This document shows positions 3,551 to 19,046 of a DNA stretch of 64,000 bases, piece after piece; position 1 is the stretch's first letter, and every line of letters begins with the position of its first letter. Below the pieces are notes generated by a model, which was given only the letters and a program-made list of their open reading frames with translations, searched no databases and was not told the origin of the DNA. Both the position numbers and the translations under genes were made by a program. The stretch is from Streptomyces sp. TLI_053 (GTDB taxonomy: Bacteria > Actinomycetota > Actinomycetes > Streptomycetales > Streptomycetaceae), in contig NZ_LT629775.1 in the NCBI RefSeq assembly GCF_900105395.1, positions 186,001-250,000 on the forward strand. Direction: 5' to 3'.

Positions 3551-3638
3551 GCGGGCCGCGACCCGCGCAAAGCCGACCGCGGACTACTGTTGTCGCTTCT
3601 GTGCGGGTTGCCGCCTGCACCGGTCCGAAAGGGACGGA

Positions 3639-5219
3639 ATGAGACCATTTCACCAGCCGCTCGTCTCCGCCGTTGAGGTGGAGGAGCTCTTCGGGCTCTA
3701 CAGCTATGAGTTGAGTTTCGGCGTCGGCACGAGCTCAGACATGCAGAGCGATCGCCTGACGCTGATCTACGGGAACAACGGCAGTGGCAAGACCACCATT
3801 CTCAAGCTCCTGTGGCATACGTTGTCCCCGTCCGACTCTCATGATCATCGGGCTGGCATTGCCAGGACCCCGTTCAAGTCGTTTATCGTTCACCTCACCA
3901 ACGGGGACGTCATCCGGATCTCCAAGCTGAACGGGCTTCTGGTCGGGGGCTTTCTCGTCAAGGTGACGACGGACGGAGTGCCCCGGTTGGAGCAGCTGTA
4001 CGTCGAGCTTCCGAACCGCGGTGACGTGATCGCCGTCTCCCCGGAAAGCCTGTCGGCTCCCGGGCCGTCGCAGGAAGGGCTCTTCGACGATCCGCAATCC
4101 GGGCCGCGCTGGCACGGCGACCCGATCCGGCGTCAACGGGAGGTCGCTTCCAGACGACGTGTACTGGGAACGGACAACGCGTTCGTCGCCTACCTCGAGA
4201 AGCTGAACGCCGCCCCGTATCTCCTGGCCGACGACAGGCAGATCTACGGGGATACGATCACGTCGCAGCCCGACAGGCGTCCGCGCTATGAGGCGGACTA
4301 TCGGCCGCCGCCCAGACTCGGTGTGCAGCAGGACGAGGGTCCTGGCGGCGGGGTGGCGGCGGAGCTGGCCAATGCGATCAGCCGCGTGAACGCGATGATC
4401 CAGAGGAAGGCGCTCGCCGGCAGCGTCCAGGGGTCAAAGGGCTCCAACAGCGCCTACCTCGGAATTCTGCAACGCGCGGCGTCCACCGACCTCACCAAAG
4501 CCGACGAGAGGACTCGCGAGGAGCTCATCGAGAGCCTCGACCAATTGGCGGAACAGAGCCGTGAGTACAGCAGGTACGGTCTACTTCCCTCGTTCGAGCG
4601 GGACCAGTTCGTCGAGGCGGTCAAAGCTGTGCCCTCGTCGAAGATCGGTGTGGTCGAGGACGTGCTGAGCCCCTTCATCGATGCGCAGCAGGCGCGGCTT
4701 GAGGCTTTGGCGGGGACCGTCAGCCTGGTCCGCACCTTCACGACGGAGATGAATCGGTTCTTCAACAGCAGCGGGAAGGAGGTCACCTACAGTCGCGGCC
4801 GCGGACTTCAGGTCAGGCACGTGCCGGGTCGCATGCCCAGTGCAATCGGCTCCCGTAGCCGGAACTCGGGTCTGGGCGGGAGCCTCTTCCCGGAGCAGTT
4901 GTCGTCCGGAGAGCGGCAGATCCTCCTACTCCTACTCAACACTCTTCTCGCGCCCGGGAACACACGGCTGTTCCTGATCGACGAGCCCGAGCTGAGCCTG
5001 AATGTGAAGTGGCAGCGGCAGCTCATGGACGCGATGCTGGCCTGCACCGAGGGCAGCCAGGTCCAGTTCATCGTCGCCACCCACTCCATCGAGGTAGTGA
5101 CCGGGCACCGCAGCTCCCTCGCTCGGATGATCTCCCGTCAGCGCGAGCCCGAGCTCGACCTGGAGGAGGAAGGTCAGGCCGACGGCGAGGCTTGGGAGTC
5201 GGAGGAGACAGAGCAGTGA
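3639..5219 (+). CDS. AAA/ABC-type ATPase of a PARIS-like (AriA-like) defence pair
   Basis: I chose the ATG at 3639 because a purine-rich GGGACGG lies just upstream and the protein then opens directly on the ATPase fold. Upstream in-frame sequence overlaps the helicase relic. The 526-aa product has Walker A at residues 45-52 (GNNGSGKT), an ABC signature near 418 (LSSGERQ), Walker B near 446-455 (LFLIDEPELSL) and an H-loop THS near 482. This is an AAA15/AAA21, OLD-like ATPase. The next gene encodes a DUF4435 protein and its start overlaps this stop, which is the arrangement of AriA-AriB in PARIS. In PARIS the ATPase senses phage anti-restriction proteins and releases the nuclease. The family assignment is by motifs and context. 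Related ATPase-TOPRIM pairs (OLD-like, Gabija-like) are the alternatives. Confidence 0.75.
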   Translation: MRPFHQPLVSAVEVEELFGLYSYELSFGVGTSSDMQSDRLTLIYGNNGSGKTTILKLLWHTLSPSDSHDHRAGIARTPFKSFIVHLTNGDVIRISKLNGLLVGGFLVKVTTDGVPRLEQLYVELPNRGDVIAVSPESLSAPGPSQEGLFDDPQSGPRWHGDPIRRQREVASRRRVLGTDNAFVAYLEKLNAAPYLLADDRQIYGDTITSQPDRRPRYEADYRPPPRLGVQQDEGPGGGVAAELANAISRVNAMIQRKALAGSVQGSKGSNSAYLGILQRAASTDLTKADERTREELIESLDQLAEQSREYSRYGLLPSFERDQFVEAVKAVPSSKIGVVEDVLSPFIDAQQARLEALAGTVSLVRTFTTEMNRFFNSSGKEVTYSRGRGLQVRHVPGRMPSAIGSRSRNSGLGGSLFPEQLSSGERQILLLLLNTLLAPGNTRLFLIDEPELSLNVKWQRQLMDAMLACTEGSQVQFIVATHSIEVVTGHRSSLARMISRQREPELDLEEEGQADGEAWESEETEQ

Positions 5220-6172
5220 CGCGGGACGGGGAGATGGAGCTTCGACGCCGCCCGGAGGAACTGGCCACGCTGTACTTCCTGGAGCCCGAGATTCGGGACG
5301 TCATCGTAGAGGGGCGCGGCGACAGAAACTTCTTCACCTGGTTCGTCTCCGAGACACCGTCGCGGGGGCTTGTCCGGGTCTATGCCGTCTCCGACCGCGT
5401 GGACCTTCCGGACTCGGAGCTGATCAAGTACGGCCTGTTGACCGGGCAACGAAGCAGAGTGCTGCACCTGTCGAACGTCCTGTCGGAGCTGGGAGTCGAC
5501 TCCGGGGCGGCCCGCCTGGTGATGGACGCGGACCTCGTGAGCATCGGGCTCGACGCCGACGCGGAGAACGACCTCCTCCTGCGCACAGACTTCTCGGCGC
5601 TCGAGGCCTACGCGTTCAACGAACGGACCATGAACAAGCTTCTGAGGATGGGGCTTGGAGCGCCGGAGACGGTGACCGCCGCAGACGTCCTCACGGCGGT
5701 CACACCGGGCCTGGTGACGCTCTTCCTAATCCGCGCCTGTCTGCGTGAATCGGGATGCGGAGCAGCTGTTCCGAACAAGGCCTTCGAGAAGATCTTCTCG
5801 GCCACGTCCTTGCCCATCACTGTCGGCGAGATATTCCAGGACGCCCTGAACGGGACCGGGAAGGCGGAACGCGGCGCCACCACGAAGGAATCACTCCTCA
5901 AGCGGTTCGGTGAGCTCGAGAAGCTCGTCACAGGCGACCCCCGGCACTTCGTCAACGGCCACGACATCAGCGAGCTCGTCGTTCAGTTCCTCAAAGCGCG
6001 CTGCAAGTCCGTCTTCAACCGAGACACGACCCGGACATACCAAGCCGGCCCCTCGCTGGAACTGCTGCTCATGGGAAAGGTGGATCTCAACGACCTGCGC
6101 CACCCCCTGTTCGAGAAGCTGGAGCAGTGGCTGCGTGAGAGCAGCTGCCCTGATAGCGCTCCACCCGTGTAG
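5216..6172 (+). CDS. DUF4435 TOPRIM-like nuclease (AriB-like effector)
   Basis: The GTG at 5216 overlaps the TGA of the ATPase gene (GTGA), implying translational coupling. An ATG at 5234 is the alternative start. The product is 318 aa. TOPRIM-like hallmarks are visible: VIVEGRGDRNFF near residues 28-39 supplies the metal-binding Glu, and VMDADL near 101-107 gives a DxD. LLRTDFSALEAYAFNE follows, a stretch typical of DUF4435. In PARIS this protein is the toxic effector, a nuclease reported to attack host tRNA after release. The key acidic residues look intact, so the pair may be functional. Substrate and trigger cannot be judged from sequence. A 10-bp hairpin lies 11 bases after the stop. Confidence 0.75.
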   Translation: MTRDGEMELRRRPEELATLYFLEPEIRDVIVEGRGDRNFFTWFVSETPSRGLVRVYAVSDRVDLPDSELIKYGLLTGQRSRVLHLSNVLSELGVDSGAARLVMDADLVSIGLDADAENDLLLRTDFSALEAYAFNERTMNKLLRMGLGAPETVTAADVLTAVTPGLVTLFLIRACLRESGCGAAVPNKAFEKIFSATSLPITVGEIFQDALNGTGKAERGATTKESLLKRFGELEKLVTGDPRHFVNGHDISELVVQFLKARCKSVFNRDTTRTYQAGPSLELLLMGKVDLNDLRHPLFEKLEQWLRESSCPDSAPPV

Positions 6173-6183
6173 GACCGGCGTGG

Positions 6184-6230
6184 GCGGGTCGGCCCTCGGC
6201 CTCCGTCCTTGATTCGCCCTGCCGACCCGC
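6184..6230 (+). terminator. Probable terminator of the PARIS-like operon
   Basis: Perfect 10-bp inverted repeat GCGGGTCGGC (6184-6193) / GCCGACCCGC (6221-6230) with a 27-base loop, starting 11 bases past the DUF4435 stop. There is no T tract, as is usual in high-GC actinomycetes. Confidence 0.5.
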
Positions 6231-6559
6231 CGCTCCGGTTCAGCCGCCCGCGGGAATGCTTCGCCCCTCTCTCCGGGGCGGGTCGGCTGCGGTACGCCCC
6301 CGTCGGCCATGCACACGGGAGGGCTTCGCGGGACCGGTGCGCGGGGCTGTTCCGGGCGAGTCTGGGCTGACCGTCGCCGACGTGGGCACCGTGCACGCAC
6401 GCCTGGCAGTGGTTGTCCGGGCGCGCCGTGGCCTCTCCACGCCGACCGGGTGCCACGGGCTGGCCTGTCCCGCTCCCCCCAGCCGGCCGCCGCTGCCCTG
6501 GCCCGCCGAACCGGCACAGAACAGCGTCTTAAACAGCTAGAGTCACAGGTCAGGAAATG

Positions 6560-6705
6560 CCGTCCCCGCACATGCAGGGCTGACACCCCTACGGCGAAGG
6601 CAGCGTCGTCTACCTCGGAACCGTCCCCGCGCACGCAGGGCTGACACCCGCGGCATCACCGAGCTCGCGCTGACCGACCGCACCGTCCCCGCGCACGCAG
6701 GGCTG
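6560..6705 (+). CRISPR. Orphan type I-E-like CRISPR mini-array (three repeats)
   Basis: Repeats at 6560-6586, 6621-6647 and 6683-6705 share CCGTCCCCGCGCACGCAGGG followed by CTGACAC. The first copy differs at one or two bases and the third is cut short after CTG. The intervening spacers are 34 and 35 bases by this boundary, so the pitch is 61-62, the type I-E geometry. No cas genes, leader or long array are visible. The repeat differs from that of the clusters at 36487 and 43921. Confidence 0.75.
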
Positions 6706-7379
6706 CCGTTTCCCTCCCTCCGGTCCTCACTCCTCCTGCATGACAAGACGACCCCGCTCTGACCACACCGCAAGCCCGGCCGAGTCCCGGCGCCTTCAGC
6801 GGAGCCGATTTCCTGCGTATGCAGACGCAGCGGCTCCAAAGCGGCTGGCCAGAGGGCTGCGGCCATTGCAATTCTCACCAGAGTGACTTGGAAATTCCCA
6901 CAAGTCGTCATACGCCGATCTCATTCAATGACATCCAGGTGAAGGAGGACGCCCGCACCTGCCTGCGCCCTTGGCCAAGGCGTCATTGACACATCAGTGA
7001 GACAGCCTCAGGACATCCAGCTGAGACTTCGCAACTCGGTGGCGCGCGGGTTGAAGGCGCGCAGCTTCACCGTCCGGAGGATCGCGTTTCACGGAGTTCG
7101 GTCTTACGGAGGTCCCGACGTACTCGCGCACCGCCCACCCGGAGCCCGCCGCGGCGTGGACCGCGACCGCCCTGGTGTGTCCAGAGGCGCTGGGGACGCT
7201 GTCCGCGATCGTGTCCGGAGGCCCCGGCATGGCTTCGAGCCGCCCGACCACCGTCCTGATCGGAGGTCACGCGAAATTTCACGTGACAACAGCGAGCCGG
7301 CTCCGCGATCATCAGCCGATGACCACGAGACCGGACCTTCTCCGTCTGAGCATCGTGCCCACCACCCAACAAGGGCAGC
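6706..7379. other. Intergenic region without a supported gene
   Basis: I see no intact gene. On the minus strand, about 55 codons leftward from 7251 keep high third-position G/C and may be a coding relic of unknown identity. AT content rises around 6880-7000. Confidence 0.3.
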
Positions 7380-8051
7380 GTGGAGGTCCGCCCGATCGTC
7401 AACGGCCGGGATCTTCTGGCCGAGGCGGTCCCCGGTGGCGTGGGAGGCTCCCGGTACCAAGGAGTAGGCCCCCGGTATCTGTTGGGCCCGGACGGGCCGT
7501 TGCATGCCGCGGCGACGCCCCGGGAAGTTCGTCCCGCCTGGTCCGGGTGCGGCGTGGAGGAGTGCTGTGGCGCCCTGTACATGACGGTCAGGCGTGACGG
7601 GAATCATGTTGCCCGGACCGGCTGGCGCGACCCTGCCAATCAGGACTTCGACCTGCCGGAGCTTCGGTTCACCGCCGGTCAGTACAAGGACGAGGTCCTG
7701 CGAGCCAAGGAGGACCGCAGTCGGGAGTGGCCGGCAGGGGCGGTTGCGCGGCTGCTCGAGGCGCGACCGAGGACACGCGGGGACTGGCTCGCCAGATGGG
7801 ACTGCGAGTTGCACGGCGTCCGGGCCTCCCGCAACGAACCGGACCGACTCCACGTCGTCCTGATGCATCCCCGCAACCGGGCCGATGCAGACCGGCCCTG
7901 GCTCCAGTTCGGGACGACCCTCCCGGTCTCCGCCGACGACCCGTCGGACCAGGCCGAACACCTCGAAGCCCAGCCGACCGCAGGCGATCCCCGCGCCACC
8001 GCCGAGGTCCGGGAAGGTTCGCATGACGCCGAGCAACTGGGCCACCCCTGA
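7380..8051 (+). CDS. Conserved hypothetical protein
   Basis: A 223-aa protein starting at GTG 7380, with AAGGG eight bases upstream. It resembles Streptomyces hypothetical proteins I have seen, with recognisable stretches such as PRYLLGPDGPLHA near 30, GCGVEECCGALYMTVRR near 57-73, WLARWDCELHGV near 135-147, and LHVVLMHPRN near 158. A Cys-rich knot (C57, C62, C63) is conserved-looking. No signal peptide, membrane helix or nucleotide-binding motif is seen, so it is probably cytoplasmic. The function is unknown. It stands alone, with no close same-strand neighbour. A later start is possible, but the N-terminal VRPIVNGRDLLAE looks genuine. Confidence 0.65.
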   Translation: MEVRPIVNGRDLLAEAVPGGVGGSRYQGVGPRYLLGPDGPLHAAATPREVRPAWSGCGVEECCGALYMTVRRDGNHVARTGWRDPANQDFDLPELRFTAGQYKDEVLRAKEDRSREWPAGAVARLLEARPRTRGDWLARWDCELHGVRASRNEPDRLHVVLMHPRNRADADRPWLQFGTTLPVSADDPSDQAEHLEAQPTAGDPRATAEVREGSHDAEQLGHP

Positions 8052-8331
8052 CCGCCGGTCGACCCCCTGTCCACATGAACGATCAGGACAGGCCACGCCG
8101 GGCCTCCCGGACACACTGCTGCGACCCGTAACGCGCACCAAGGCACCGGCCGAACCGGCACCGGGCTCCTTCGAGACGACCTGCTGCCAACCGGGCCCAC
8201 CATGACGTCATCATCCTCTCCGTTGGAGCGGTCAGGGGGGCAGGCACCGGTCCGGCAGGTGGACAGGACAGCGATGGGGCCTCCGACCGGGCGCTTGTGA
8301 AGTCGCAGGTCGACTGAACAGTGCGGATGCT
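8052..8331. other. Intergenic, nothing recognised
   Basis: No gene, hairpin or repeat that I can support in this stretch. It leads into the inverted repeat copy at 8332. Confidence 0.4.
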
Positions 8332-8430
8332 CATGAGCGTCTTCCGGCGGGGCCCGACCCACCGACCGACCGACCTCGGGTCCTTGACAGGGTTCTGTCG
8401 GCCCCGTCCGGAAGCCGCTCGTGTGCATCC
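8332..8430 (+). repeat. Copy A of a ~100-bp dispersed inverted repeat
   Basis: This segment matches the reverse complement of 23830-23926 over about 97 bases with scattered mismatches. Shared blocks include GTCTTCCGGCGGGG, CACCGACCGAC, GACCTCGGGTCCT and TGTCCGGA-type ends. The copies face each other across 15.4 kb. Identity of the element is unknown. Confidence 0.75.
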
Positions 8431-8436
8431 TGGCTG

Positions 8437-8646
8437 TCAGTCGACCTGCGTCCAACCGCGGGGGGAGGTGCTGATCCCGGCGAAGCCGCGGTATGCCTTT
8501 CTTTTCCACAGCGTGCTGCCCGGGTCGTATTCGTGGAGCGCCTCGCGGGCTTCCTGCTCGGTGTCGAAGGCGTATTCCTTTCCGTTCGGTGTGCGGATCT
8601 TCCATTCGTCCATCGGCATTCCGGCGAGACCCGGTCCCATCGACAT
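8437..8646 (-). CDS. Small hypothetical protein (69 aa)
   Basis: It opens at ATG 8646 with a perfect AAGGAGGAAACG ribosome binding site just upstream, so it is almost certainly translated. The 69-residue product is soluble and acidic-basic mixed, with a compact middle WKIRTPNGKEYAFDTEQEA and a C-terminal GWTQVD. It has no Cys, no signal peptide and no membrane helix. It may be a small beta-rich domain. I do not recognise the family. It sits 83 bases downstream of the glycosyltransferase gene on the same strand, so it could be the last gene of the glycocin-like operon. That link is only positional. Confidence 0.65.
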   Translation of the reverse strand: MSMGPGLAGMPMDEWKIRTPNGKEYAFDTEQEAREALHEYDPGSTLWKRKAYRGFAGISTSPRGWTQVD

Positions 8647-8729
8647 TCGTTTCCTCCTTGATCGTGGATTTCTTCCATGCTACGGCCGCGCATTTCCCGG
8701 TTCCTGTCGGCGGGAGGCGGGGCCGGGGC

Positions 8730-9998
8730 TCAGCGGGCCGGATCCTTCGGCCCGATTTCCTCCCGCAGCCGTTCCAGTTCGGCGCTCAGGAACGTTCCGG
8801 CGCCGAGCGCGAGTGCTGCCCCCAGGGCCGGAGCGGCATGCTCGTAACGGCCGGTCGCCAGGGACAGCAGGCCGTGCAGTTCGTGAAGGCGCCCCATGAC
8901 CCGGATGTCCGCACAGGCGGTCTCGCGCACCGCGTCGGCCGCGGTGTCGGCGAGCCCGGCGAGGACCCTCAGGCTGCGGCTCGTCGTGACGACGGTGCGG
9001 AAGTAGGTGGCCTCGGCGCCGCGCCCGGCCCGCTCCAGGAGCGCGGTGTAGGTGTCGATCTCGTCCGATCCGCCGAAGCGCAGGGCAAGTTCGCACAGCA
9101 GTACCCAGGTGTCCTGGCGGCGTTCGTCGGTGTAGTCGCACGGGGGGAGGCCGTCGCGGGCGGGTGCCGCGGCGAGCCGGCCGAAGAGGGACCGCGCGGC
9201 CTCGGGGCCGGTGTGCTGGGGAAGTTCGGCCCGGGCCTGGTAGAACACCCACTTCGGATTGTCCGGCTCCTCGGCACGGCACAGTGCCGTCAGCCTGGCG
9301 TGGCGGTCGAGCTTTGCCTTCGCGGTGATGACGGTCGGGTGGTAGCCGTGGTGGCGAAGGACGGTGGTGAGGTGGACCGTCGGGGGCGCGTTGCCGTCGC
9401 TGTCGTAGGGACGCTCGTGGATGCGACCGCGGTAGCGCAGTGCGGTGCGCGCCCGCACGAGGCGCGGCAGGTCGGGGTAGCGGCCGGCCGGGTCGTGATC
9501 GTCGAGCACCAGCGGGCACGCCGCGAGGTCGGCATGGGGCAGGATGTGGTCCAGGAGGACTGCGGCGCGGCGGACGGTTCCGGCGTCGGCGGGTGCGAGC
9601 ACCTCGTCGGCGTCGATCATGAGGACCCAGCCGTCGTGAACGTGGTCGAGGGCGAGGTTGCGTTGGTGCGCGAAGTCCTCCTGCCACGGGGCGTGGACGA
9701 CCCGGGTGGGCAGCGGATGTGCCGCCACGATGTCCAGGGTGCGGTCCGAGGAGCCGGAGTCCACGATCAGCGCCTCGTCGACGTCCTGGGTGAGGGCGTC
9801 CAGGCAGCGGCCGATCGTGTCCTCCTCGTCCTGGGTCAGGACGACAGCGGTGACGCGGGGCGCCGTTCGGTGCCGTCGGTCACCGGCGGGAACCGGAAGG
9901 TGTGCCAGTTGCGGGGACATCCCGCTGATCAGCGCGAGGCCCTCGAGGGCCGGGCCAGGATGTGTGTCGGGCCGGTCGAGCAGGTCGTGGATCAGCAT
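8730..9998 (-). CDS. Family 2 glycosyltransferase, SunS-like (glycocin modification)
   Basis: A 422-aa GT-A fold glycosyltransferase. The nucleotide-sugar site is readable near residues 49-62 (VTAVVLTQDEEDTI), followed by LIVDSGSSDRTLDIV near 77-91 and the metal-binding DxD as LMIDADEVL near 128-136. The remaining ~230 residues are helical and TPR-like. Both the length and the two-part layout match SunS, which attaches glucose to a Cys of sublancin. The start overlaps the end of the exporter gene by seven bases, so the two are coupled. A precursor peptide with a sublancin-like core is two genes upstream. I infer S- or O-glycosylation of that peptide. Donor sugar and target residue are not shown by sequence. 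Confidence 0.8.
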   Translation of the reverse strand: MLIHDLLDRPDTHPGPALEGLALISGMSPQLAHLPVPAGDRRHRTAPRVTAVVLTQDEEDTIGRCLDALTQDVDEALIVDSGSSDRTLDIVAAHPLPTRVVHAPWQEDFAHQRNLALDHVHDGWVLMIDADEVLAPADAGTVRRAAVLLDHILPHADLAACPLVLDDHDPAGRYPDLPRLVRARTALRYRGRIHERPYDSDGNAPPTVHLTTVLRHHGYHPTVITAKAKLDRHARLTALCRAEEPDNPKWVFYQARAELPQHTGPEAARSLFGRLAAAPARDGLPPCDYTDERRQDTWVLLCELALRFGGSDEIDTYTALLERAGRGAEATYFRTVVTTSRSLRVLAGLADTAADAVRETACADIRVMGRLHELHGLLSLATGRYEHAAPALGAALALGAGTFLSAELERLREEIGPKDPAR

Positions 9999-12124
9999 GC
10001 CGGGTGCTCCTCGGCGTGCGGGGCCGGGGTGGCGGGGGCGGGGGCGGGCAGCTCGATGACGCGGTCGAAGGCGAGGTCGGTGGCGGCGGTGTGCGACACC
10101 ACGACCTTGGCGGCCGGGAGCTCGGCGAGGTTGGCCCAGATCCGGTGGACCGTGGTGCGGTCGATCCCGCTGAACGCCTCGTCGAGGAGGTAGACATCAG
10201 GCCTGCGCAGGACAGCCCGGGCCAGTGCCAGACGCTGGACCTGGCCACGGGACAGCCCGCTGCCGTCCTCGTGCACCAGGGTGTCGAGCCCTTCGGGCAG
10301 GCCGGCCACGACCTCGTCGAAGCAGGCCGTCCGGCAGGCGAGAGCCCGGGCCCGGTCGTCGGCCGGCACGCCGAAGTCGAGGTTCTCCCGCACACTGGCG
10401 GCCAGCAGCAGAGGGGTGTCGGCCAGGTAGAGGACGCGTTCGCGCAGCGACGCGTCGCCGATCGCGGCGAGGTCCCGACCGCCGATCCGCACCGTGCCGC
10501 CGTGGTGGGCGATGAACCCGGCGAGGGCCTTGAGGGCGGTGCTCTTGCCCCGGCCGTTGGCGCCGACGAGGCGGATCCGCTCCCCCGGGCCGACGGACAG
10601 GTCGAAGTCGGCGAGGGCGGGTCGGGTCTGCTCCGGGTAGACGACGGTCAGGGCTCGTGCGTCGACGCCGGTGTTCGGCACGGTAGGCCTGCCGGCGCCG
10701 GCGGGGACGGTGAGCAAGGGGTCCTCGCGCTGTTGTGTCACGTCGCGGTAGCGGCCGACAGCGGCTGCCAAGTGCTGGAATGCGACCTGCAGGCCGGCCA
10801 GGGAGTCGACCGCGGCGAGGAAGCAGCCGGCCAGGGCGACGGTGGAGAGGATCTCGCCCACGCTCCGGGTGCCGGCGTGGTTCTGGTGCAGGCATGCCCA
10901 CACGACGAGGAGTGTGGTCAGGCCCAGGTTGAGGCCCTTGAGCACGGTGTTGGTGTTGCCCAGCCGCCCCAGCCTCGTCTCGGCGGCGATCCGGTGTTCG
11001 AGCCGGTCCAGTACGCGGCGGACGGCGAAGTCACGGGCTGCGAGGGCCACGACATGCTCGTAGCCGCGCAGGATGTTGAACAGTTCGGCCTTGAGCGTCG
11101 CGTCGCGCTGGAGGGCCTCCTCCGACGCCGTCCGGATCGGACGGAACAGGAGCCAGGAGGACCAGAGGTTCACCGCGGCGGAGGCCGCCAGGATGCCCAG
11201 AACCGGCGGGTCGTCGAAGGCGAGGTAGCTACCGGTGAGCAGCGCGATGCCCAGGTCGATGGCTGCGCGGACCGTGGAGGAGGCCACCAGGGACTGGATC
11301 TCCCCCACGTCGTCGACGCGGTTCACCAGGTCCCCGGCGCGCCGCCCCTGGTGGAAGGCGAGCGGCAGGCGCAGCAGTCGGCGGATGTAGTCCTCGGACA
11401 GCCGGCGCTGGAGGGACTGTCCGAGGGTGACGCTCATCCGCCCGCGCAGGTGGTTGGCGCCGGCGGCGACCATGACCACCAGGGCCAGGACGGCGGCGAG
11501 CAGGTCGAGGGAGTGGGTGGAGTCCTCCCGCAGTACCAGGTCGGTGCCGACTTTGAGGAAGAGACTGGTGGCCAGTGCGGCCAGGGAGACCGCGCCGGTC
11601 AGCGAGAGCAGGAGGGCCAGCGCGGGCCAGTGCGCCCTGACCAGTGGCCGCAGCACCGGCTGTGGGCGGGGTCCGCGCAGGCGCGCCCACCGCGAGAGGC
11701 CCGTGACCGGGCGGCCGGTCACCAGGGCGTGGCCGGTGAACACTTCGGTGAGGTCCTGCGGATCGATGAGGGTGGGGCCGGAGAACAGCGGGTCGCTGAC
11801 CACGAACCGGTTGCCGCGCACGGTGTGGACGACGATGAAGTGCGGTCGGCTGTCGATGTGCACCCGGATGATCGCCGGTCCCGCGACCTCCAGGGCCAGG
11901 GCGAGCTGTGCGGTGTCCAGGCGCAGGAGTTCGGACGCCACGCCGTGGTCGGCGAGGACGCGGTGCAGGCGGGCGAGGGTCGAGCCCCGCTGCCCCAGCC
12001 CGACGGAGTCCCGTAGGACGGTGGTGTCGACGAGGCGGCCGTGTCGGCGCAGGACGGTGCGGACGCAGGCGGGGCCGCAGTCGGTGTCGCCGCTCTGGTG
12101 GGTGTGGAATCGTCGGAAGTTCAC
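9992..12124 (-). CDS. Peptidase C39-containing ABC exporter (PCAT, SunT-like)
   Basis: I chose the GTG at 12124 because AGAGGAA lies upstream and the C39 domain starts at once. The 710-aa protein has the full bacteriocin-exporter layout. First is a C39 protease with its catalytic Cys in QSGDTDCGPAC (residues 8-18), His in PHFIVVHTV and Asp in VVSDP. Then come six-helix membrane segments, including LALLLSLTGAVSLAALATSLF. An ABC ATPase follows with Walker A GANGRGKST, signature LSRGQ, Walker B VYLLDEAFSGID and H-loop VVSHTA. Such proteins cut the leader after a double-Gly-type site and export the peptide. It lies 65 bases after the precursor gene and overlaps the glycosyltransferase gene. All catalytic residues look intact. 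Confidence 0.92.
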   Translation of the reverse strand: MNFRRFHTHQSGDTDCGPACVRTVLRRHGRLVDTTVLRDSVGLGQRGSTLARLHRVLADHGVASELLRLDTAQLALALEVAGPAIIRVHIDSRPHFIVVHTVRGNRFVVSDPLFSGPTLIDPQDLTEVFTGHALVTGRPVTGLSRWARLRGPRPQPVLRPLVRAHWPALALLLSLTGAVSLAALATSLFLKVGTDLVLREDSTHSLDLLAAVLALVVMVAAGANHLRGRMSVTLGQSLQRRLSEDYIRRLLRLPLAFHQGRRAGDLVNRVDDVGEIQSLVASSTVRAAIDLGIALLTGSYLAFDDPPVLGILAASAAVNLWSSWLLFRPIRTASEEALQRDATLKAELFNILRGYEHVVALAARDFAVRRVLDRLEHRIAAETRLGRLGNTNTVLKGLNLGLTTLLVVWACLHQNHAGTRSVGEILSTVALAGCFLAAVDSLAGLQVAFQHLAAAVGRYRDVTQQREDPLLTVPAGAGRPTVPNTGVDARALTVVYPEQTRPALADFDLSVGPGERIRLVGANGRGKSTALKALAGFIAHHGGTVRIGGRDLAAIGDASLRERVLYLADTPLLLAASVRENLDFGVPADDRARALACRTACFDEVVAGLPEGLDTLVHEDGSGLSRGQVQRLALARAVLRRPDVYLLDEAFSGIDRTTVHRIWANLAELPAAKVVVSHTAATDLAFDRVIELPAPAPATPAPHAEEHPAC

Positions 12125-12145
12125 TGCATGGTTCCTCTGCCGGGT

Positions 12146-12175
12146 GCCGCGGCCGGCCGTGGGGCCGGCCGCGGC
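12146..12175 (-). terminator. Hairpin between precursor and exporter genes (attenuator)
   Basis: Perfect 13-bp stem GCCGCGGCCGGCC (12146-12158) / GGCCGGCCGCGGC (12163-12175) with a 4-base loop, 14 bases after the precursor stop codon. In RiPP operons such a hairpin commonly lets the precursor be expressed more than the processing genes. That role is inferred here. Confidence 0.6.
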
Positions 12176-12189
12176 GCTCGGCGATGTCC

Positions 12190-12387
12190 CTACTTGCCCT
12201 TGCACTCGCGGTTGTAGATGGCCATGTAGTTCGCCGGGGTCCCGCCGCAGGAGATCACCGCGCTGGTGAAGCTGAGCGCCTTGATGTGGGCGCACTGGGC
12301 GGCGTTGAGGCCCTCTCCGGCCGCTGCTTCGGCGGCGGCGGCGTCGAGTGCCGGGAAGCCCATCGCCCGCAGGTCGGTCAGACTCAT
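12190..12387 (-). CDS. Sublancin-like glycocin precursor peptide (65 aa)
   Basis: The ATG at 12387 has AAGGA eight bases upstream. An in-frame ATG at 12450 lacks a binding site. The 25-aa leader MSLTDLRAMGFPALDAAAAE continues to AAAGE, and a ~40-aa core follows, beginning GLNAAQC. Against sublancin (GLGKAQC...) the core aligns without gaps: Cys7 matches, and Cys22-Gly-Gly, the glucosylated Cys in sublancin, falls at exactly position 22 (ISCGG). The final Cys is at 37 against 36. Sublancin Cys14 and Cys29 are replaced by Ser and Tyr, so only one disulfide (7-37) is possible. Together with the exporter and SunS-like enzyme downstream this indicates a glycocin bacteriocin. The cleavage site (after GE or after EG) is uncertain. 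Confidence 0.8.
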   Translation of the reverse strand: MSLTDLRAMGFPALDAAAAEAAAGEGLNAAQCAHIKALSFTSAVISCGGTPANYMAIYNRECKGK

Positions 12388-12628
12388 CTTGCTGTCCTTG
12401 TCTCTCGGTTGATCTCCGGAAAGCACATGCGTGTGCTCCGTGATATTCATCGGAATGCGGCGGCGATCGGTGGTGATCGATGGTGATCGGATTCGGGAAT
12501 CCGGTTCGGATCCCCTTGGGTGCGGCGCCCGGAATTTCCGGTCGGCCGCTCGCCCCGCCTGAACATTAGAAATCGGACGAGACCTGACGGGCAAGGCGGA
12601 TCGGGGTGCTCGGTGTTGCCTCGCGACT

Positions 12629-12657
12629 TTGACGCTTCGGAGTCGATCTGTTACTAT
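12629..12657 (+). promoter_or_regulatory. Sigma70-type promoter for the HTH-TPR regulator
   Basis: TTGACG (12629-12634), a 17-base spacer and TACTAT (12652-12657) form a near-consensus vegetative promoter. It lies in the 347-base divergent region between the glycocin precursor and the regulator, which is AT-richer than the surroundings. Transcription would begin near 12664. Confidence 0.65.
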
Positions 12658-12734
12658 GAATTCGAGATTTGTTGATACTTCGACGAAATTTCCACGTGCC
12701 GGTCGGGGCCGGCACGCACGCCCGACACACCGAC

Positions 12735-14108
12735 ATGGCAGCGCATCCCCTGGTCGCGCTCAGAACCGCGACCGGCCTCTCGCAGTCCGCGTACGCCCAG
12801 CTGATCGCCCGGGTGCACGCGGAACTCGGTCACGGGCAGATGGCCGCGCGGCGGGAGAAGGTGTCCCGCTGGGAATCCGGCCGGATCACCCCCGAACTCA
12901 GCGCCCAGCTCGCCATCGCCCGCATCCACGACGTGGACCGGGACATCGTCCTGCGCCTGGGCTGGCCGCGATGGCTGCCGGGCGCCACCGGTGACCACGC
13001 GCTGTCGGGACAACCGTGGAACCCGCAGGCCGCCATCGGGGTCACGCGGGCGACCGCGGAAGCGACCTGGGACTGCGGCCCCACGCTGATCATCACCGGA
13101 CCCTCCCTCGCCGGCCAGATCCGCGGCGCCGTACAAGCACTCACCGATCCCCGGCCCCCCGCCCGCGACGGCCCCCGCATCACCCCCGCGACACTCACCT
13201 GGTCCGAGGCCCGCATCCGCGCCCTCGAAGAACTCGAAGCCGGCAGCCCCATGCACCAGGGCGCCCTCTACCTGGCTGCCCGCGCCGAGTACCGACTCGT
13301 CAGCGACCTGCTGACCCGCTGCGGATACGACCCCGCCACAGGCGCCCGGCTGCTCCTCCTCGCGGCCCGCAGCGCCGCCCTGTGCACCTGGATCAGCGGC
13401 GCGCTGGGGGAAGAGGTCCGTGCCGAGCGCTACGCCCTGGCCGCGATCCGGGCCGCGTCCGCCGCGGGCGCGCCCCGCCACACCGCCGCCTATCTCTCCC
13501 TGCTCTCCCTCAGGCACCTGCGCCGCGGAGACCCCCGCGATGCCCTCTCCCTGCTCCGGGCCTCCCGCACCGTCGACCCCCGCCCCACCCACCGCCTCGC
13601 CGTCATCCAGCACACCCGCCACGCCCGCGCGCTCGCCCGGCTCGGCGAACACGCCGCCGCCCTCCGGGCCCTGGACCACGCCGAGCGAGCCCTGGCCGGG
13701 ACCTCCCCGACCTGGGACGCGCAAGCCGACCCCACCGGCAGCTACGTCAACGACGAGTTCCTCACCCTCGCCCGCGGCCAGACCTGGCTGCGCCTGGGAG
13801 AACCGGTCCGCGCGCTCTCCTGCTACCACAGCGTCCTCACCGACGGCACGCCCCCCTCACAGCCTCCCTCCCCGCACGCCGCCGCACGCCTGCGCCCGGT
13901 CGTGGAGGCCCAGCTGGCCACCGGGGACATCGACGCGGCCACCGCCGCCGTTCGCGCCGCCGCCGACCGGGCGGGCACCCTGCCACCCGGACTCGCCCGC
14001 TGGTTCCGCCACCGTCTGACCCCCCACTCCGCACATCCCGGCACACGGGAACTGCTCGACCACCTGGCCGACCGGCCCGCCCCGTACTGGCGGACCGGTC
14101 CCGACTGA
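12735..14108 (+). CDS. HTH (XRE-type) transcriptional regulator with TPR-like C-terminus
   Basis: The ATG at 12735 gives 457 aa. Upstream in-frame TTG 12669 lies too close to the promoter and is less likely. An XRE-type HTH occupies residues 5-70, including LRTATGLSQSAYAQLI and KVSRWESGRITPELSAQLA. The remaining ~370 residues are Ala/Leu/Arg-rich helical repeats of TPR type, as in large actinomycete regulators that bind small ligands or peptides. No membrane helix is seen. It is divergent from the precursor-exporter-glycosyltransferase operon and shares a 347-base intergenic region with it. It is therefore the natural candidate to control that operon, although this is inferred. A ligand peptide sensed by the TPR part would be reasonable but is not shown. 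Confidence 0.75.
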   Translation: MAAHPLVALRTATGLSQSAYAQLIARVHAELGHGQMAARREKVSRWESGRITPELSAQLAIARIHDVDRDIVLRLGWPRWLPGATGDHALSGQPWNPQAAIGVTRATAEATWDCGPTLIITGPSLAGQIRGAVQALTDPRPPARDGPRITPATLTWSEARIRALEELEAGSPMHQGALYLAARAEYRLVSDLLTRCGYDPATGARLLLLAARSAALCTWISGALGEEVRAERYALAAIRAASAAGAPRHTAAYLSLLSLRHLRRGDPRDALSLLRASRTVDPRPTHRLAVIQHTRHARALARLGEHAAALRALDHAERALAGTSPTWDAQADPTGSYVNDEFLTLARGQTWLRLGEPVRALSCYHSVLTDGTPPSQPPSPHAAARLRPVVEAQLATGDIDAATAAVRAAADRAGTLPPGLARWFRHRLTPHSAHPGTRELLDHLADRPAPYWRTGPD

Positions 14109-14576
14109 CCGCGCCGTCGGCCCCGGCCGTGCCCGACCGACCGAGCGACCGAGCGCGTCGCCGCCGATCCGGGCCAGGACGCGAAGCCACAGCCGCCTCC
14201 CCGGCAACAGGGCGCCCCCGGTCAGGGGACAGCAGTGGGCACCGAGTCCGTCCAGCACGTCGGACAGGGCGTCCCTGGCCCGTTCACACCGATCACCGCC
14301 CGGGATGCCCCCCACGGACTCCTCGTGACGATCGACGGAAGGCAGCCTGTCGACGTCCAGGGCCCCGCCGCCGTCGTCGACCACCGGCCGGGCGAGGTGG
14401 GCATCCGCACCGGGTGGCCCTGCGGGCCCCGCTCCGCGCCGGCTTCCTCTGCACGCCAACCGGTCCGTGACCCGCACACCGGCGGTCCGGGAGCGCCGGC
14501 CCGCGGGCCGGTACGGCGGCGCGGCCGAAGGCAGACGGGACGGAACGCCGCCCGGTCCCTGGGACCGGCCCGGGCC
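14109..14576. other. Intergenic region, nothing supported
   Basis: No gene, RNA or repeat that I can support. It separates the regulator from the opposing membrane protein gene, so the two genes converge here. Confidence 0.4.
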
Positions 14577-15119
14577 TCAGGCAAGAGCGGTGACGAGCCT
14601 CGCCGCGGCCATCGCGACCAGGAGCACCGCACCGCCCAGCAGGTACTGCGTGGCGTGGCGCATCCTTCGCGCCCGGACCTGATGGACACTGATGCACCGC
14701 CACAGCTCGACAGCGGCGGCATCGGCAGCCGCCTCGAGGGTCTGCGCACAGAGCCCCGCGCGGAACTGCTCCACGGAGGCGAACGCCTCGACGGTGTCGC
14801 CGTAGCTGAACGCGATCGGCACCACGGCGCCGGACGGCCGCGACAACGCAGGCAGCCTTCCCGACCCGGTGAGCACCAGAGCCGCCAGGGCCACCGAACA
14901 CACGCTCACGACCAACGCGGCCAGCCCGACCGCCCCGAGGACGGGCGACACCTCCGAGGACGTCGCCCCGGAGGCGAACACCACACCGGTCACGACGAGC
15001 GCATCAGCGCTCAGGAGAGCACCTGCCCGGTTCACCAGCCCCAGACGAAGCCCGTCCGCCCGCACCAAGTGCCACTGGACCAGACGCAGCCTCTCCTCTG
15101 GACACAGTTCCTCACCCAC
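14577..15119 (-). CDS. Pycsar-effector-like (DUF5706) membrane protein
   Basis: I chose the GTG at 15119, preceded by a GGGGGAAGGG purine run, giving 180 aa. An N-terminal amphipathic segment (RLVQWHLVRADGLRLGLVN) leads into two membrane helices (LLSADALVVTGVVFASG and LGAVGLAALVVSVCSVALAA). A cytoplasmic helix rich in Glu/Ala follows, and a last membrane helix (YLLGGAVLLVAMAAARLVTA). This topology and the R-A-D/N-R-A-G-ALL pattern resemble the DUF5706 family, which includes membrane effectors of Pycsar antiphage systems. No cyclase gene is beside it, so either the system is incomplete, the partner is elsewhere, or the protein has another role. The assignment is by pattern only. Confidence 0.5.
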   Translation of the reverse strand: MGEELCPEERLRLVQWHLVRADGLRLGLVNRAGALLSADALVVTGVVFASGATSSEVSPVLGAVGLAALVVSVCSVALAALVLTGSGRLPALSRPSGAVVPIAFSYGDTVEAFASVEQFRAGLCAQTLEAAADAAAVELWRCISVHQVRARRMRHATQYLLGGAVLLVAMAAARLVTALA

Positions 15120-15921
15120 TGCCCCACCCTTCCCCCGTACCGCCAGGACAGACAGACATCTGCCCCACTGCACAGGGAATTCCCCCACCCACAGGCAGCA
15201 ACCCCCAACAGGAGTCTGACCGTTCGCCGCCCCGCCACAAGCCCAGCCGCTCCCCCGCCGGGCCGGCCCGGCGTCCCGCACCCGCTCCTCCCGCCACCGG
15301 CCCGCCGGGGCCGGGAGACGGACGGCCAACCGCTCCCGCACCGGGCCGGAACAGGCAACACCCGCAGACCCAGCTCTTTCTCCTCCCGGTCGCTGACACA
15401 CAGCGCGCACTCCCGCAGCTCCAGCTCCGGACCGACACTCGACGGCGTCACTTCGCCGACCTCCGCCAGCGCGGCAGGCCCCCGGGCATGCCGACCGGCA
15501 GCCAATTCCGGATCGGACCGCCCTGGCTCCCACCGGGACAGCGGTGGCTTCGGCACCGGTGGTCCTCGAGCCCGGCTTCAGGGAGTCCGGCACGGTGGCG
15601 CCCCAGCGCCGGGGGTGCTCCGCCCACCGGTCCGGCCCTCCGGGGAAGGCGAGCCGCCTCGGTCGGTGCGCGGCCTGGCCAGCAGCAGCCTCCGACCACG
15701 CGGGCGGGGCGGGTTGGCGGCACAGGCACACGAGGACACCGGCACGACGTCACCGCGAAGGGCGCCCCGACAACCTCAGCCAGCACGAAGGGGAAACCAC
15801 CCGCCGGGCACCGCACGCGTCACGGACGGTTCCGGCGGCGCCCACGGCTCCGGTTGCGGGCACCGCCCGTGCCCGCAACGACACTCCCCCGGCACCGGCA
15901 CGCATCCCGCCCGGACCGACA
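15120..15921. other. Long intergenic region, no gene supported
   Basis: Open frames here show no clear codon bias in one frame and no recognisable domain. It leads into the dispersed repeat at 15922. Confidence 0.4.
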
Positions 15922-16121
15922 TCCCGTCACCTCCGCAACACACCCGGGAACAGGAAAATCTTCGGCACACCCCGGGATCGTGCGAGCCATTCTTTGCCAG
16001 CAGGACCGCAAGATTTCCTGCTCCCCAGGGAAGACGGCGCATCGTCCCAGGCCGGGCGGCCGGCCACCACCGCCGGCGCCGGCACGGTACGCACGGGCCC
16101 GGGCGCGGCACGACGACGACC
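15922..16121 (+). repeat. Copy 1 of a ~200-bp dispersed direct repeat
   Basis: The segment is about 80-90 percent identical by eye to 49972-50190 in the same orientation. Shared blocks include CCCGTCACCTCCGCAAC, CCGGGAACAGGAA, ATCTTCGGCACAC, GCGAGCCATTCT, GACCGCAAGATTTCCTG and GGCCCGGGCGCGGCACGACG. Inside it, CAGGAAAATCTT (15951-15962) faces AAGATTTCCTG (16010-16020), so the transcript could fold into a stem. No protein is evident. Confidence 0.75.
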
Positions 16122-16615
16122 GCACACCGCACCGCCCACGACAGGCGCACCTGCCCGACACACCGACCCGACGCGCAAACCGGCCCCGGGCGCGGCATCG
16201 GGAGCCACCGGACCATCGGACATGGTGAACACCGCACCCGGCGCCCGGCCCCTCCCCCACGACACCAGCACCCCGAATCCGAACGCCCGCACCCCAGGGC
16301 AACGTCCGGGCGAGCCCGCCGCACCGATCACCGCCGGCCCGCCACCCACCAGGACACGGGCACCGTCCCCACCCAGCTGCCCACCCCCCGGGGGGACGCA
16401 CTCCGCAACGGCGGGAACCCTCCAGAGCCCGGAGACCGGGATTCCTGTCCCGGCTCAACTCCCGCCAGCACGACCAGATCCGACGGCCGAACAGCTCTCT
16501 CGTCGAGACCCTCCAGGAGCCGGACGGGCCCCGACCCCCTCCGAGCGCCGTTCAGTGCCGGCGAAACCCGCCGCGCGGCCTGCCGTTGGTGACCGTCGGT
16601 TCGACGTGGGACCCG

Positions 16616-16687
16616 GGCCGCCGCCCCTGAGGTTTCGCGTGGACCGGTCGGCGGGCCGGTCCACGCGAAACCTCAGGGGCGGCGGCC
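16616..16687 (-). terminator. Perfect 32-bp hairpin (strong terminator or small mobile hairpin)
   Basis: Arms 16616-16647 and 16656-16687 are exact reverse complements over 32 bp, with an 8-base loop TCGGCGGG. The centre of each arm holds CCCCTGAGGTTTCGCGTGG or its complement. It lies 147 bases downstream of the secreted-protein gene on the minus strand and has no T tract. It is unusually long for an ordinary terminator. The rest of 16122-16833 shows no gene I can support. Confidence 0.6.
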
Positions 16688-16833
16688 GCCGATCCGGTCG
16701 AGAGCCCACGCCATCGGGACAGCGGTGGCGACAGCGACGGCGATCCGGTACCAGAAGGAGGAGGTCACGTGATCGGCTGCCACCAGGACCCCGCCCCAGA
16801 GGGCCAGGACCCCTGCCTTGGCAAGACCCCCGG

Positions 16834-17274
16834 TCACGTGAGCAGCGCCGTCAGGCAGCCCGAGGCCCCGGCCGCCACCGTGTTCACCGTGATCTCCCTG
16901 GCCACCTTCTTGTTCACCTTTCCGGCGATCAGGGCGGCGGCGCCGCCGACGCCCATGCGGATCAGGCAGTTCTTCGCCGTCTCCGTCATCGGCCTGGCCC
17001 CGAGTGCCTTGCAGTACTTCTCCCGGTCCGCCTCGTTCTTCCCGAAGCGGCAGTTGACGGCGTTGTGGTCCTGCCGCGGGTCCACCAGAACGGGGGCGTC
17101 GATCACGTTCACACCCGTGGACGCCTCGGTGGCGGTGCCCGCGGGGAGTTCAGTCACCGACACCGACACCGACATCGGCTCAGCCGGAGCCGCGTGGGCG
17201 GCGGTGCCGGTCACGAGGATGCTTCCCGCTATCACTATTGAGGTGAGACCTGCTGCGAATTTCTTCAACTTCAT
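16834..17274 (-). CDS. Secreted hypothetical protein (146 aa)
   Basis: I chose the ATG at 17274 because a classical signal peptide follows (KLKKFAAGLTSIVIAGSILV, then AHA at the cleavage site). An ATG six bases upstream is an alternative. The mature part has Cys in VNCRFGKN, EKYCKALG, KNCLIRMG and SGCLTALL, which could make two disulfides. The C-terminal 45 residues look like one hydrophobic Gly/Ala helix region (GGAAALIAGKVNKKVAREI...), reminiscent of bacteriocin-like or pore-forming peptides, but I cannot name a family. A related fragment, KNCLIKAGTDSADALVVGRF, occurs at 23925-24098. It is probably exported by the Sec route. Confidence 0.7.
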   Translation of the reverse strand: MKLKKFAAGLTSIVIAGSILVTGTAAHAAPAEPMSVSVSVTELPAGTATEASTGVNVIDAPVLVDPRQDHNAVNCRFGKNEADREKYCKALGARPMTETAKNCLIRMGVGGAAALIAGKVNKKVAREITVNTVAAGASGCLTALLT

Positions 17275-17651
17275 TCCCATGAACGATCGGCACGAGAAAA
17301 CGTACTGCTCTCGCTTTCCATCGAATCTAGTGGTGGGTCCCATTCCGCGAAATGAGACCTTCGTACACCTTCCTTGAATCTTCCCTCCTGCTCACCGCGT
17401 GGAGCGAGCAGGCCGTCACTCATGACGCCCCGATCTGCGCCGTGGGTGACGCCCGTTCAGCGCGTCGTTTGTGGCCCCGTTCCCCGCATCGGTCGGCGGG
17501 CGGTGAAGAGGCGCTTCGCGGCCGCGGCGAACAGCGGCGGCCCCGCTCCGGCCAGGCGATCGAGCGCTCCTCCCGGTCGTCCTGGCGAGCGCTGGCGAGT
17601 CGGCCCCGCAGGCCGGTGTTCTCCAGCTGTCCTCCTCTACTGTGTCGCACC
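17275..17651. other. Divergent intergenic region
   Basis: 377 bases between the divergent secreted-protein and reductase genes. It must hold both promoters, but I see no convincing -35/-10 pair. The part next to 17274 is AT-richer. Confidence 0.4.
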
Positions 17652-18479
17652 ATGACCATTCTGATCATCGGTGGCAGTGGATTCCTGGGCACCGAGCTGG
17701 TCCGCCAGGCCGCAGCGGCGGGCCGCACGACGGCTGCGACGTTCACCACCCGGCCCGGCAGCACCCCGGGGGTCTCGTGGCACGCCCTCGACCTGCGCGA
17801 CTTCAGCCGCATCGAGGCGATCATGACCGAGGTGGAACCCCACGTGGTCGTCAACGCGACGAGCGGGGGACCCGACTGGACGGTCACGGCCGAGGGACCG
17901 GTCCGCCTGGCGATGACCGCGGCGAAGCACGGCAGCCGCCTGGTCCATGTGTCCAGCGACGCCGTGTTCTCCGGCCTGCGCGTCCACTACGACGAATCCT
18001 GCCTCCCCGACCCCCTCACCCCCTACGGTGCCGCGAAGGCCGCGGCGGAGACAGGTGTCCGCCTCGTGAACCCGGGCGCCGTCGTAGCCCGCACCTCCCT
18101 GATCATCGGCGACCGGAGATCGGAACACGTACGCGCGGTGCACGACCTCGCCGCCGGCACCCGCACCGGCGTCCTGTTCACCGACGACATCCGCTGCCCC
18201 GTACACGTCGCCGACCTGGCCGCCGCCCTGCTGGAACTCGCCTGCGGCGACCGGTCCGGCGTCCACCACCTGGCAGGAACCGATGCCCTGAGCCGCCACG
18301 AACTCGCCACCCTCATCGCCCGACGCGACGGGCTCGACGCCTCCCGGCTTCCCACCGGCCTGCGGGCCGACAGCGCACTTCCCGGGGCACTCGACGTCCG
18401 CCTCGACAGCCGTGCCACCCAGGACCGGCTCCGGACAGCACTCCGCGGCGCCCGCCAGTTCCTCGCCGCCGGGACGTGA
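17652..18479 (+). CDS. SDR-family sugar-nucleotide reductase (dTDP-4-dehydrorhamnose reductase-like)
   Basis: The ATG at 17652 opens on a Rossmann fold: MTILIIGGSGFLGTELVRQA carries the GxxGxxG dinucleotide motif at residues 7-13. The catalytic YxxxK is PYGAAKAAAE near 125, preceded by VHVSSDAVFSG, giving the Ser/Thr-Tyr-Lys set. DDIRCPVHVADLAAALLEL near 178-196 matches the RmlD substrate-binding half. The 275-aa length is normal for RmlD-like proteins, which reduce 4-keto sugars with NADPH. There are no other sugar-biosynthesis genes around it, so the substrate is open. The ribosome binding site is weak. It is a cytoplasmic enzyme. Confidence 0.85.
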   Translation: MTILIIGGSGFLGTELVRQAAAAGRTTAATFTTRPGSTPGVSWHALDLRDFSRIEAIMTEVEPHVVVNATSGGPDWTVTAEGPVRLAMTAAKHGSRLVHVSSDAVFSGLRVHYDESCLPDPLTPYGAAKAAAETGVRLVNPGAVVARTSLIIGDRRSEHVRAVHDLAAGTRTGVLFTDDIRCPVHVADLAAALLELACGDRSGVHHLAGTDALSRHELATLIARRDGLDASRLPTGLRADSALPGALDVRLDSRATQDRLRTALRGARQFLAAGT

Positions 18480-19046
18480 ACCCCTCTCCCCGGCGACGCG
18501 ACCGCCCACGCTCAGACTCCGGCGAGAACGCACAGCCCTCGAACAAGACGGAACACGCCGCAGGCCCACTGTCACGCCGGCGTCGGATCTGTCGTCCCGG
18601 GACGAGGCCGACCGGCAACCTGCGCCGCGCGGCCAGCAGCTGCGGAAGCCGGGCGTCGAGCTGGATACCTCGCCGGGCGAGGAGTTCGAACGGCCCGCCC
18701 CTCCATGACACGCGGGATCACTCGAATCCCATCCCCCCTGATCCAGTACTCCCCTGCCCGAAGTCGCGGCCTCGGCCGGAAGCACAGGCATCGTCACCTA
18801 CACCGTCCGCACCACCTCCACCGGAGGATGCAGTGCCCGGCCGACCTCGGCACCGACCCTGTCGACCGGGCGCCCACGGATCCTCCGGTTCGCCGCGCGG
18901 GTACCCGGAGAAGGGCCGGCGTGTGGGCATGTGCTGCCTGGACCGCGGCAGGCGGGCCGGCGGCAGGGGCGTACCGCAGGGTCGGCGTCGCGCTCTCCCG
19001 CGTGGGCCACACGAGACGCTGGGCAGCCGCGCTCCTCCGTGCACCA
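18480..19046. other. Intergenic region, nothing supported
   Basis: No intact gene. The right half may contain further decayed sequence of the kinase relic at 19225-19437, but I cannot follow it. Confidence 0.35.

Follow-up and report, generated by a model that had tools for sequence, protein, structure and literature searches.

We consider it likely that Streptomyces sp. TLI_053 carries a glycocin gene cluster of a three-cysteine subfamily related to sublancin, with a product that bears one S-linked sugar, on Cys47, and one disulfide, between Cys32 and Cys62 of the precursor. The cluster lies within the 64,000 nucleotides of contig NZ_LT629775.1 (positions 186,001 to 250,000) that were analysed, hereafter the window, in which all coordinates are counted. 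Read on the minus strand from 12387 downwards, it consists of genes for a 65-amino-acid precursor peptide (12190..12387), a SunT-like C39 peptidase/ATP-binding cassette (ABC) exporter of 710 amino acids with a GTG start (9992..12124), a SunS-type glycosyltransferase family 2 (GT2) peptide glycosyltransferase of 422 amino acids (8730..9998), whose ATG start overlaps the exporter stop, and a 69-amino-acid protein (8437..8646) with an AAGGAGG ribosome site. The reading frames are intact in all four genes, and third-position G+C (0.92 for the precursor, 0.92 for the exporter, 0.88 for the glycosyltransferase and 0.80 for the 69-amino-acid gene) is as expected for genes in DNA of about 70% G+C. The first-pass annotation had placed and framed the first three genes correctly and read them as a complete operon; those three members were borne out, and the fourth gene had been overlooked.

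In sublancin, SunS is described as glucosylating Cys22, SunT as cleaving and exporting the peptide, and BdbB as involved in its two disulfides (PMC6391423). The ungapped alignment of the window precursor to the sublancin precursor SunA, reported at first reading, proved to be real: none of 2000 shuffled versions of the precursor reached its Smith-Waterman score of 55, and 1 of 2000 did so when the precursor cysteines were held fixed. Cys32, Cys47 and Cys62 align to sublancin Cys7, Cys22 and Cys36, with spacings of 15 and 15 as against 15 and 14 in sublancin, and the places of sublancin Cys14 and Cys29 are occupied by Ser39 and Tyr54, so that the earlier description of a core that keeps Cys7, Cys22 and a terminal cysteine and lacks the Cys14-Cys29 pair also stands. 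Family models gave matches to Pfam Sublancin (PF19151; 20.7 bits, E 4.6e-4, cut-off 26.9) and to TIGR04196 (17.3 bits, E 0.0057, cut-off 40), and a PDB sequence search with the precursor returned one chance match (E 1.2).

The same pattern recurs in other Streptomycetaceae. With its own genome counted each time, searches with the glycosyltransferase gave matches in 2 of 70 genomes at genus level, in 9 of 394 at family level and in 2 of 394 at class level; the class-wide search, at E<=1e-40, added no further family, and both of its matches were already known. Relatives were also added from named genomes, namely Streptomyces sp. NBRC 110611 (L021), NRRL B-1347 (L022), Root431 (L024) and Lentzea albidocapillata (L025), the Lentzea-type enzymes having been found separately. 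This left 11 distinct Streptomycetaceae relatives (L013 to L022 and L024, as L023 repeats L017), of which nine have precursor, exporter and glycosyltransferase together, so that a related core does recur next to these genes. All ten precursors, those of the window and of these nine loci, have three cysteines each, no more and no fewer, which follow the order of sublancin Cys7, Cys22 and Cys36; the five cysteines of sublancin, with nested 7-36 and 14-29 disulfides and a glycosylated Cys22, are found in none of them. The three-cysteine pattern is a trait of the subfamily and not a peculiarity of the window locus. A profile of the ten precursors detects SunA (E 8e-8); none of 2000 shuffled SunA sequences did better than 0.018, and seven of the ten precursors match SunA individually with a score reached by at most 2 of 2000 shuffles. 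In the leader, which spans about residues 1-24/26, Met1, Ser2, Leu3, Leu6, Arg7 and Gly24 are invariant, and in the core Tyr54 is nearly so. Putative cleavage would fall at AAAGEG|LNAAQC or AAAG|EGLNAAQC; one glycocin with a GK cleavage site has been described (PMC12457901). The structure model of the precursor has helices at 29-39, 43-46 and 51-61, a weakly predicted helix-loop-helix that fits the proposed peptide.

The 422-amino-acid protein is a GT2 enzyme by Pfam (E 1.4e-14), and its best NCBIfam model is TIGR04195, the SunS peptide S-glycosyltransferase (132.9 bits, E 1.4e-38). Its best relatives of solved structure are 7msk (E 6.1e-36), which we take to be ThuS although the record itself reads Glyco_trans_2-like protein, and 7msn (SunS; E 5.9e-31), followed by GmaR at E 3.1e-15. 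With 7msk, SunS and TIGR04195 as its top matches, the cluster contains a peptide glycosyltransferase of the SunS/GccA class. The wall or polysaccharide models that were scanned matched far less well, and the objection foreseen at first reading was to that extent not borne out. A profile of the Streptomycetaceae enzymes scores SunS at 213.5 bits, in an alignment that starts from model position 1, and the best GT2 protein outside known glycocin loci at 147.9 bits, from position 59. In the glycosyltransferase tree the Firmicutes glycocin enzymes form a group with support of 87/84 and the Streptomycetaceae clade has 92/99. A search of viral contigs with the enzyme found no relative.

The exporter is complete in its Pfam domains (Peptidase_C39, 5e-20; ABC_membrane, 2e-22; ABC_tran, 8e-25), so that a small leader-bearing precursor stands beside a C39/ABC exporter in the window as in nine of the 11 relatives. 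The 65-base gap between the two genes holds a G+C-rich hairpin (12146..12175, minus strand); the gap has a fold energy of -45.6 and a z of -5.1 against 200 mononucleotide shuffles. Such a hairpin lies 3' of the precursor gene in 9 of the 10 loci, with z from -2.4 to -8.1 in the eight other than the window, L022 being the exception (z -0.6). It is a probable attenuator that would favour precursor transcripts.

The first-pass annotation had also noted that no thiol-disulfide oxidoreductase genes accompany the cluster, and the searches agree within their reach. BdbA, BdbB and three thioredoxin-type proteins of glycocin loci gave no tblastn match at E<=0.01 in window 3001-20000 or in the loci of the 11 relatives, 12 loci in all; in a control on three Firmicutes loci BdbA and the thioredoxins detected one another and BdbB detected only itself, so the search is blind to distant BdbB types. 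No thioredoxin or DsbA domain was present in the nine neighbouring open reading frames (ORFs) of the window that were scanned. A motif scan for oxidoreductases was discarded because its pattern recovered none of six known oxidoreductase-type genes in the three Firmicutes glycocin loci. In a looser scan for CxxC the window and six of nine relatives had no biased ORF; the ORFs that it returned in L015, L019 and L022 run antisense to known genes, and between the precursor and exporter genes of L022 there is a further ORF, of ambiguous status, which overlaps one that looks like a transposase gene (by eye).

From these features a pathway can be proposed. The precursor would be made in excess over the enzymes by way of the hairpin 3' of its gene. 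Before the leader is lost, the SunS-like glycosyltransferase would modify the loop cysteine Cys47 (the counterpart of sublancin Cys22), adding a single sugar drawn from a nucleotide sugar. Cleavage at the GEG site by the exporter's C39 domain would then free the core for export. Outside the cell Cys32 and Cys62 (sublancin Cys7 and Cys36) are predicted to pair in one outer disulfide with no oxidoreductase specific to the task, in a core folded as helix-loop-helix with the aromatic Tyr54 in place of Cys29, one half of the inner disulfide. The mature peptide would probably inhibit related Gram-positive bacteria via a sugar permease of the phosphotransferase system (PTS), and the likeliest candidate to protect the producer is the 69-amino-acid protein.

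Several observations weigh against assigning the cluster to the glycocins related to sublancin. The precursor falls below both family cut-offs and the glycosyltransferase far below the TIGR04195 equivalog cut-off of 350 bits. With the Streptomycetaceae profile, the GT2 protein at 147.9 bits, an Acidobacteriota enzyme of unknown role, scores as high as the GccA-like enzyme (146.8), though well below SunS, and no well-supported node deep in the tree unites the Firmicutes and Streptomycetaceae clades. Across the subfamily the spacing between the Cys7 and Cys22 counterparts varies from 13 to 17 and the second from 14 to 16; a first spacing of 15, in exact register with sublancin Cys22, is confined to the window, L021 and L022, and the precursors of L014, L017 and L018 match SunA weakly when taken alone (scores reached by 55, 19 and 45 of 2000 shuffles). 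The leader has no clean GG, GA or GS, the window reading GEG and only L019, L020 and L024 having GG. The precursor model has a mean predicted local distance difference test (pLDDT) score of only 68, and a fold search with it gave no match at E<=0.001. Two of the 11 relatives, L013 and L016, have neither a precursor nor an intact exporter, and the transposase-like ORF of L022 separates its precursor from its exporter.

The low family score of the precursor, together with the abundance of GT2 enzymes and ABC exporters, is what might suggest that a general glycosyltransferase and a general peptide exporter adjoin by chance and that the small ORF is spurious. This is scarcely credible, and already contradicted, since nine of 11 relatives repeat the same three genes, their precursors sharing a conserved leader and a three-cysteine core, and since SunS and 7msk are the top matches of the glycosyltransferase. 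That the cluster has decayed or is silent, and yields no product, is very unlikely. The window lies 186-250 kb from one end of a genome that consists of one 9.9 Mb contig, and damaged relatives do exist: L013, in which no precursor was found, has an exporter cut short and an adjoining transposase-like ORF (by eye), L016 has the glycosyltransferase only, and L022 has its internal transposase-like ORF. Against this stand four intact frames with third-position bias and full-length C39, membrane and ATPase domains, and judged from its sequence the cluster is probably working in the window strain.

The nature of the product leaves room for two further readings. The glycosyltransferase might modify a serine or threonine of the loop (Ser39, Thr41, Ser42 or Ser46), with Cys47 free or otherwise paired. 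Such residues exist in the window precursor, and glycocin glycosyltransferases that make both O- and S-links have been described (PMC12457901), but the central cysteine is present in all ten precursors whereas the loop Ser/Thr positions vary and the loop is different and shorter in L014, L017 and L018; we regard this as quite unlikely. It is unlikely, too, that the glycosylated product acts in signalling or development and not as an antibacterial. The loci searched contain no SunI relative, and DasR-like cores before the precursor in three relatives tie them to N-acetylglucosamine (GlcNAc) signalling, but the closest characterised relatives are bacteriocins and the distribution, in 9 of 394 family genomes including its own, is as patchy as that of bacteriocin genes. 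We retain the reading of a glycocin with one predicted S-linked sugar on Cys47 and one disulfide.

Among known systems the cluster most resembles that of sublancin 168 (SunA/SunT/SunS, from the SPbeta prophage), with which it shares precursor, C39-ABC exporter and glycosyltransferase, the ungapped core GLxxAQCA...CGG, homology of the glycosyltransferases over N-terminal and GT2 regions, and a stem-loop, annotated in SPbeta, at the same place 3' of the precursor gene. It differs in lacking counterparts of Cys14 and Cys29, in its actinomycete host, in its gene order (precursor, exporter, glycosyltransferase, small ORF) and in that SPbeta has bdbA and bdbB, whereas no BdbA, BdbB or SunI relative was found in window 3001-20000. 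The thurandacin system of Bacillus is linked to the window through 7msk (presumably ThuS), the best solved-structure match of its glycosyltransferase at E 6e-36. Glycocin F, thermoglycocin and orniglycocin are likewise described as combining a SunS-class glycosyltransferase, a C39 exporter and a sugar-decorated, cysteine-rich peptide, as is predicted for the window, but GccF has five cysteines and thermoglycocin and orniglycocin seven or eight, as against three here, and these glycocin loci carry thioredoxin-type genes, two of them in the GccF plasmid locus, whereas none was found in the window.

By the titles of published papers, glycocin clusters are reported beyond the Firmicutes and S-linked glycosylation in Actinobacteria. 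The first-pass claim of novelty in actinomycetes is weakened by such titles. The sublancin-like glycocin cluster with a reduced-cysteine core is supported from that account, though the deep part of the tree and the score of the Acidobacteriota enzyme hold back full support; the actinomycete novelty and the divergent regulator are weakened. Every earlier characterised glycocin is described as having five cysteines, and two newer ones seven and eight (PMC12457901); in the open-access literature examined, a three-cysteine core would be the smallest cysteine set described for glycocins. If our reading is true, the nested double disulfide considered typical of glycocins is dispensable, and structure-activity studies and engineering would gain a sublancin scaffold reduced to its minimum.

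The 69-amino-acid gene is conserved near the glycosyltransferase, at 64-75% identity, in L013, L021 and L022, the nearest relatives of the window in the glycosyltransferase tree. In the window and in L013 it lies downstream and on the strand of the glycosyltransferase; L022 and L021 have it on the other strand, downstream in the former and upstream in the latter. A gene that switches strand yet stays in the locus would be behaving as an immunity gene might, and the protein is a candidate, the best we have, for self-protection. Its model is beta-beta-alpha-beta (pLDDT 79), and a fold search with it found nothing at E<=0.001. No SunI relative was matched at E<=0.01 in window 3001-20000 and the loci of the 11 relatives. 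EnfI, an established glycocin immunity protein, may according to one account be a membrane protein (PMC8620827). Homologues occur in 13 of 394 family genomes, its own included. Divergent copies (<=51% identity) are present in 11 other family genomes that have no glycosyltransferase match, which rules out a gene exclusive to glycocins; ten of their loci (L116-L125, G004 being left out) gave no precursor match. In those ten loci the copies stand in neighbourhoods without glycocin genes and are possibly orphan protection genes. Beside the 69-amino-acid gene in L021 (4600-5367) and L022 (9596-10279) are response-regulator-like ORFs (by eye), where the window has a regulator of the NsdA type.

That regulator (12735..14108, plus strand; start codon uncertain, the longest frame running from 12669) is a helix-turn-helix/tetratricopeptide-repeat-like neighbour of the NsdA family, at 160.9 bits and E 7e-47 against NCBIfam NF053720 (cut-off 75). 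It had been taken for a part of the cluster, a membership that finds no support, as tblastn at E<=1e-3 detected no homologue in 13 loci of the relatives, 12 of them distinct. Without composition correction L013 gave a single match (24%, E 0.001), which runs opposite to its glycosyltransferase and exporter genes.

In nine of the 11 relatives (L014-L021 and L024) the glycosyltransferase lies between a PTS enzyme IIC (EIIC) gene and a gene for a metallo-beta-lactamase-fold protein, the cluster of L019 and L020 being inverted with respect to that of the remaining seven. L021 has an EIIC of the GlcNAc type (TIGR01998, E 1e-140, under the cut-off for a IIBC fusion), and the other eight were assigned by similarity to it. 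PTS permeases are proposed glycocin targets (PMC5890784, PMC6405829). In a control sample EIIC was present in 50 of 61 family genomes, and by a hand count that left out G083, G021, G091 and G101 the two flanking genes are convergent neighbours in 46 of the 50, with a gap below 200 bases in 39. Seven control genomes, including that of the window (2.9 kb), have longer gaps, in which no glycocin precursor, exporter or 69-amino-acid gene was found and the single glycosyltransferase match was at chance level (27%, E 0.005, with stops). Unrelated cargo in these gaps marks an insertion hotspot and so weakens a functional PTS reading; the link between glycocins and their PTS neighbourhood in the relatives is only suggestive. 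The EIIC next to the hotspot falls into at least two allele classes across the 394 Streptomycetaceae genomes. That of L021 is 76-89% identical to the glycosyltransferase-adjoining EIIC of seven other nagE2-linked genomes and 59% to that of L024, and the class at 75-90% to L021 (E<=1e-180) is present in 129 of the 394 genomes, all of one genus: in all seven nagE2-linked glycosyltransferase genomes of that set and in 122 others. Immunity through a receptor variant stays a lead, because the glycocin lineages and the EIIC allele class may share ancestry.

DasR-type operator cores, for which the consensus is given as A(G/C)TGGTCTAGACCA(G/C)T (PMC4398421), lie directly 5' of the precursor gene in three of nine relatives tested: L018 (12508-12523, no mismatch in 12, reached by 0 of 1000 shuffles), L019 (12015-12030, 1 of 1000) and L020 (5560-5575, 0 of 1000), the last two with one mismatch each and closely related to one another. 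They suggest GlcNAc-responsive control of these three precursors and count, together with two of the Pseudonocardiaceae loci described below, in favour of a functional PTS link. Control of the window cluster by DasR was rejected, its best core having four mismatches and being matched by 386 of 1000 shuffles. As no operator was found near the window precursor and the cluster lies 5.8 Mb from the nagE-like genes of its own genome, the PTS/DasR link cannot be claimed for the window. The PTS-linked sister clusters would offer a genetic handle on how glycocins use PTS permeases as receptors.

Glycosyltransferases like SunS were also found in 6 of 200 Pseudonocardiaceae genomes, one as a partial match. 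Each is preceded by a small ORF (L025 7385-7960; L137 9668-10057; L138 7677-8096; L139 9284-9697; L140 7735-8163; L141 about 6880-7503) whose N-terminus resembles RLAFLDDLE and which has a hydrophobic stretch like a signal sequence and five cysteines in its C-terminal part (all by eye). A C39 exporter match is absent from the six loci, L139 having ABC genes without the C39 part, and the small ORFs possibly represent a Sec-exported class of glycosylated peptides. Two of the six (L025 4355-9248 and L140 7735-12760) adjoin a PTS set of EIIC, GntR regulator, EIIB and EIIA, recognised by domain scan in L025 and in L140 by an EIIC match with the rest by eye; the glycosyltransferases stand on opposite sides of the set, suggesting separate insertions. 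L140 also has an HPr-like ORF (by eye). It is possible, but doubtful, that single-disulfide actinomycete glycocins coevolved with their target, being adjacent to nagE2 in most of the Streptomyces loci, capable of standing under DasR and perhaps matched by a permease variant that gives receptor-type self-immunity; the window would then be a relocated member in need of the 69-amino-acid protein, and the Pseudonocardiaceae would hold a second, Sec-exported class modified by SunS-type enzymes, beside PTS genes in two of the six genomes.

Two features elsewhere in the window may be recorded. At 3390-6172 a domain scan found a gene for an AAA-type ATPase followed by a weak DUF4435 match, a pair that we take to resemble OLD/TOPRIM-like defence gene pairs. 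At 19430-20923 an ORF fuses partial AMP-binding and partial major facilitator superfamily domains and looks like the remnant of a nonribosomal peptide synthetase region.

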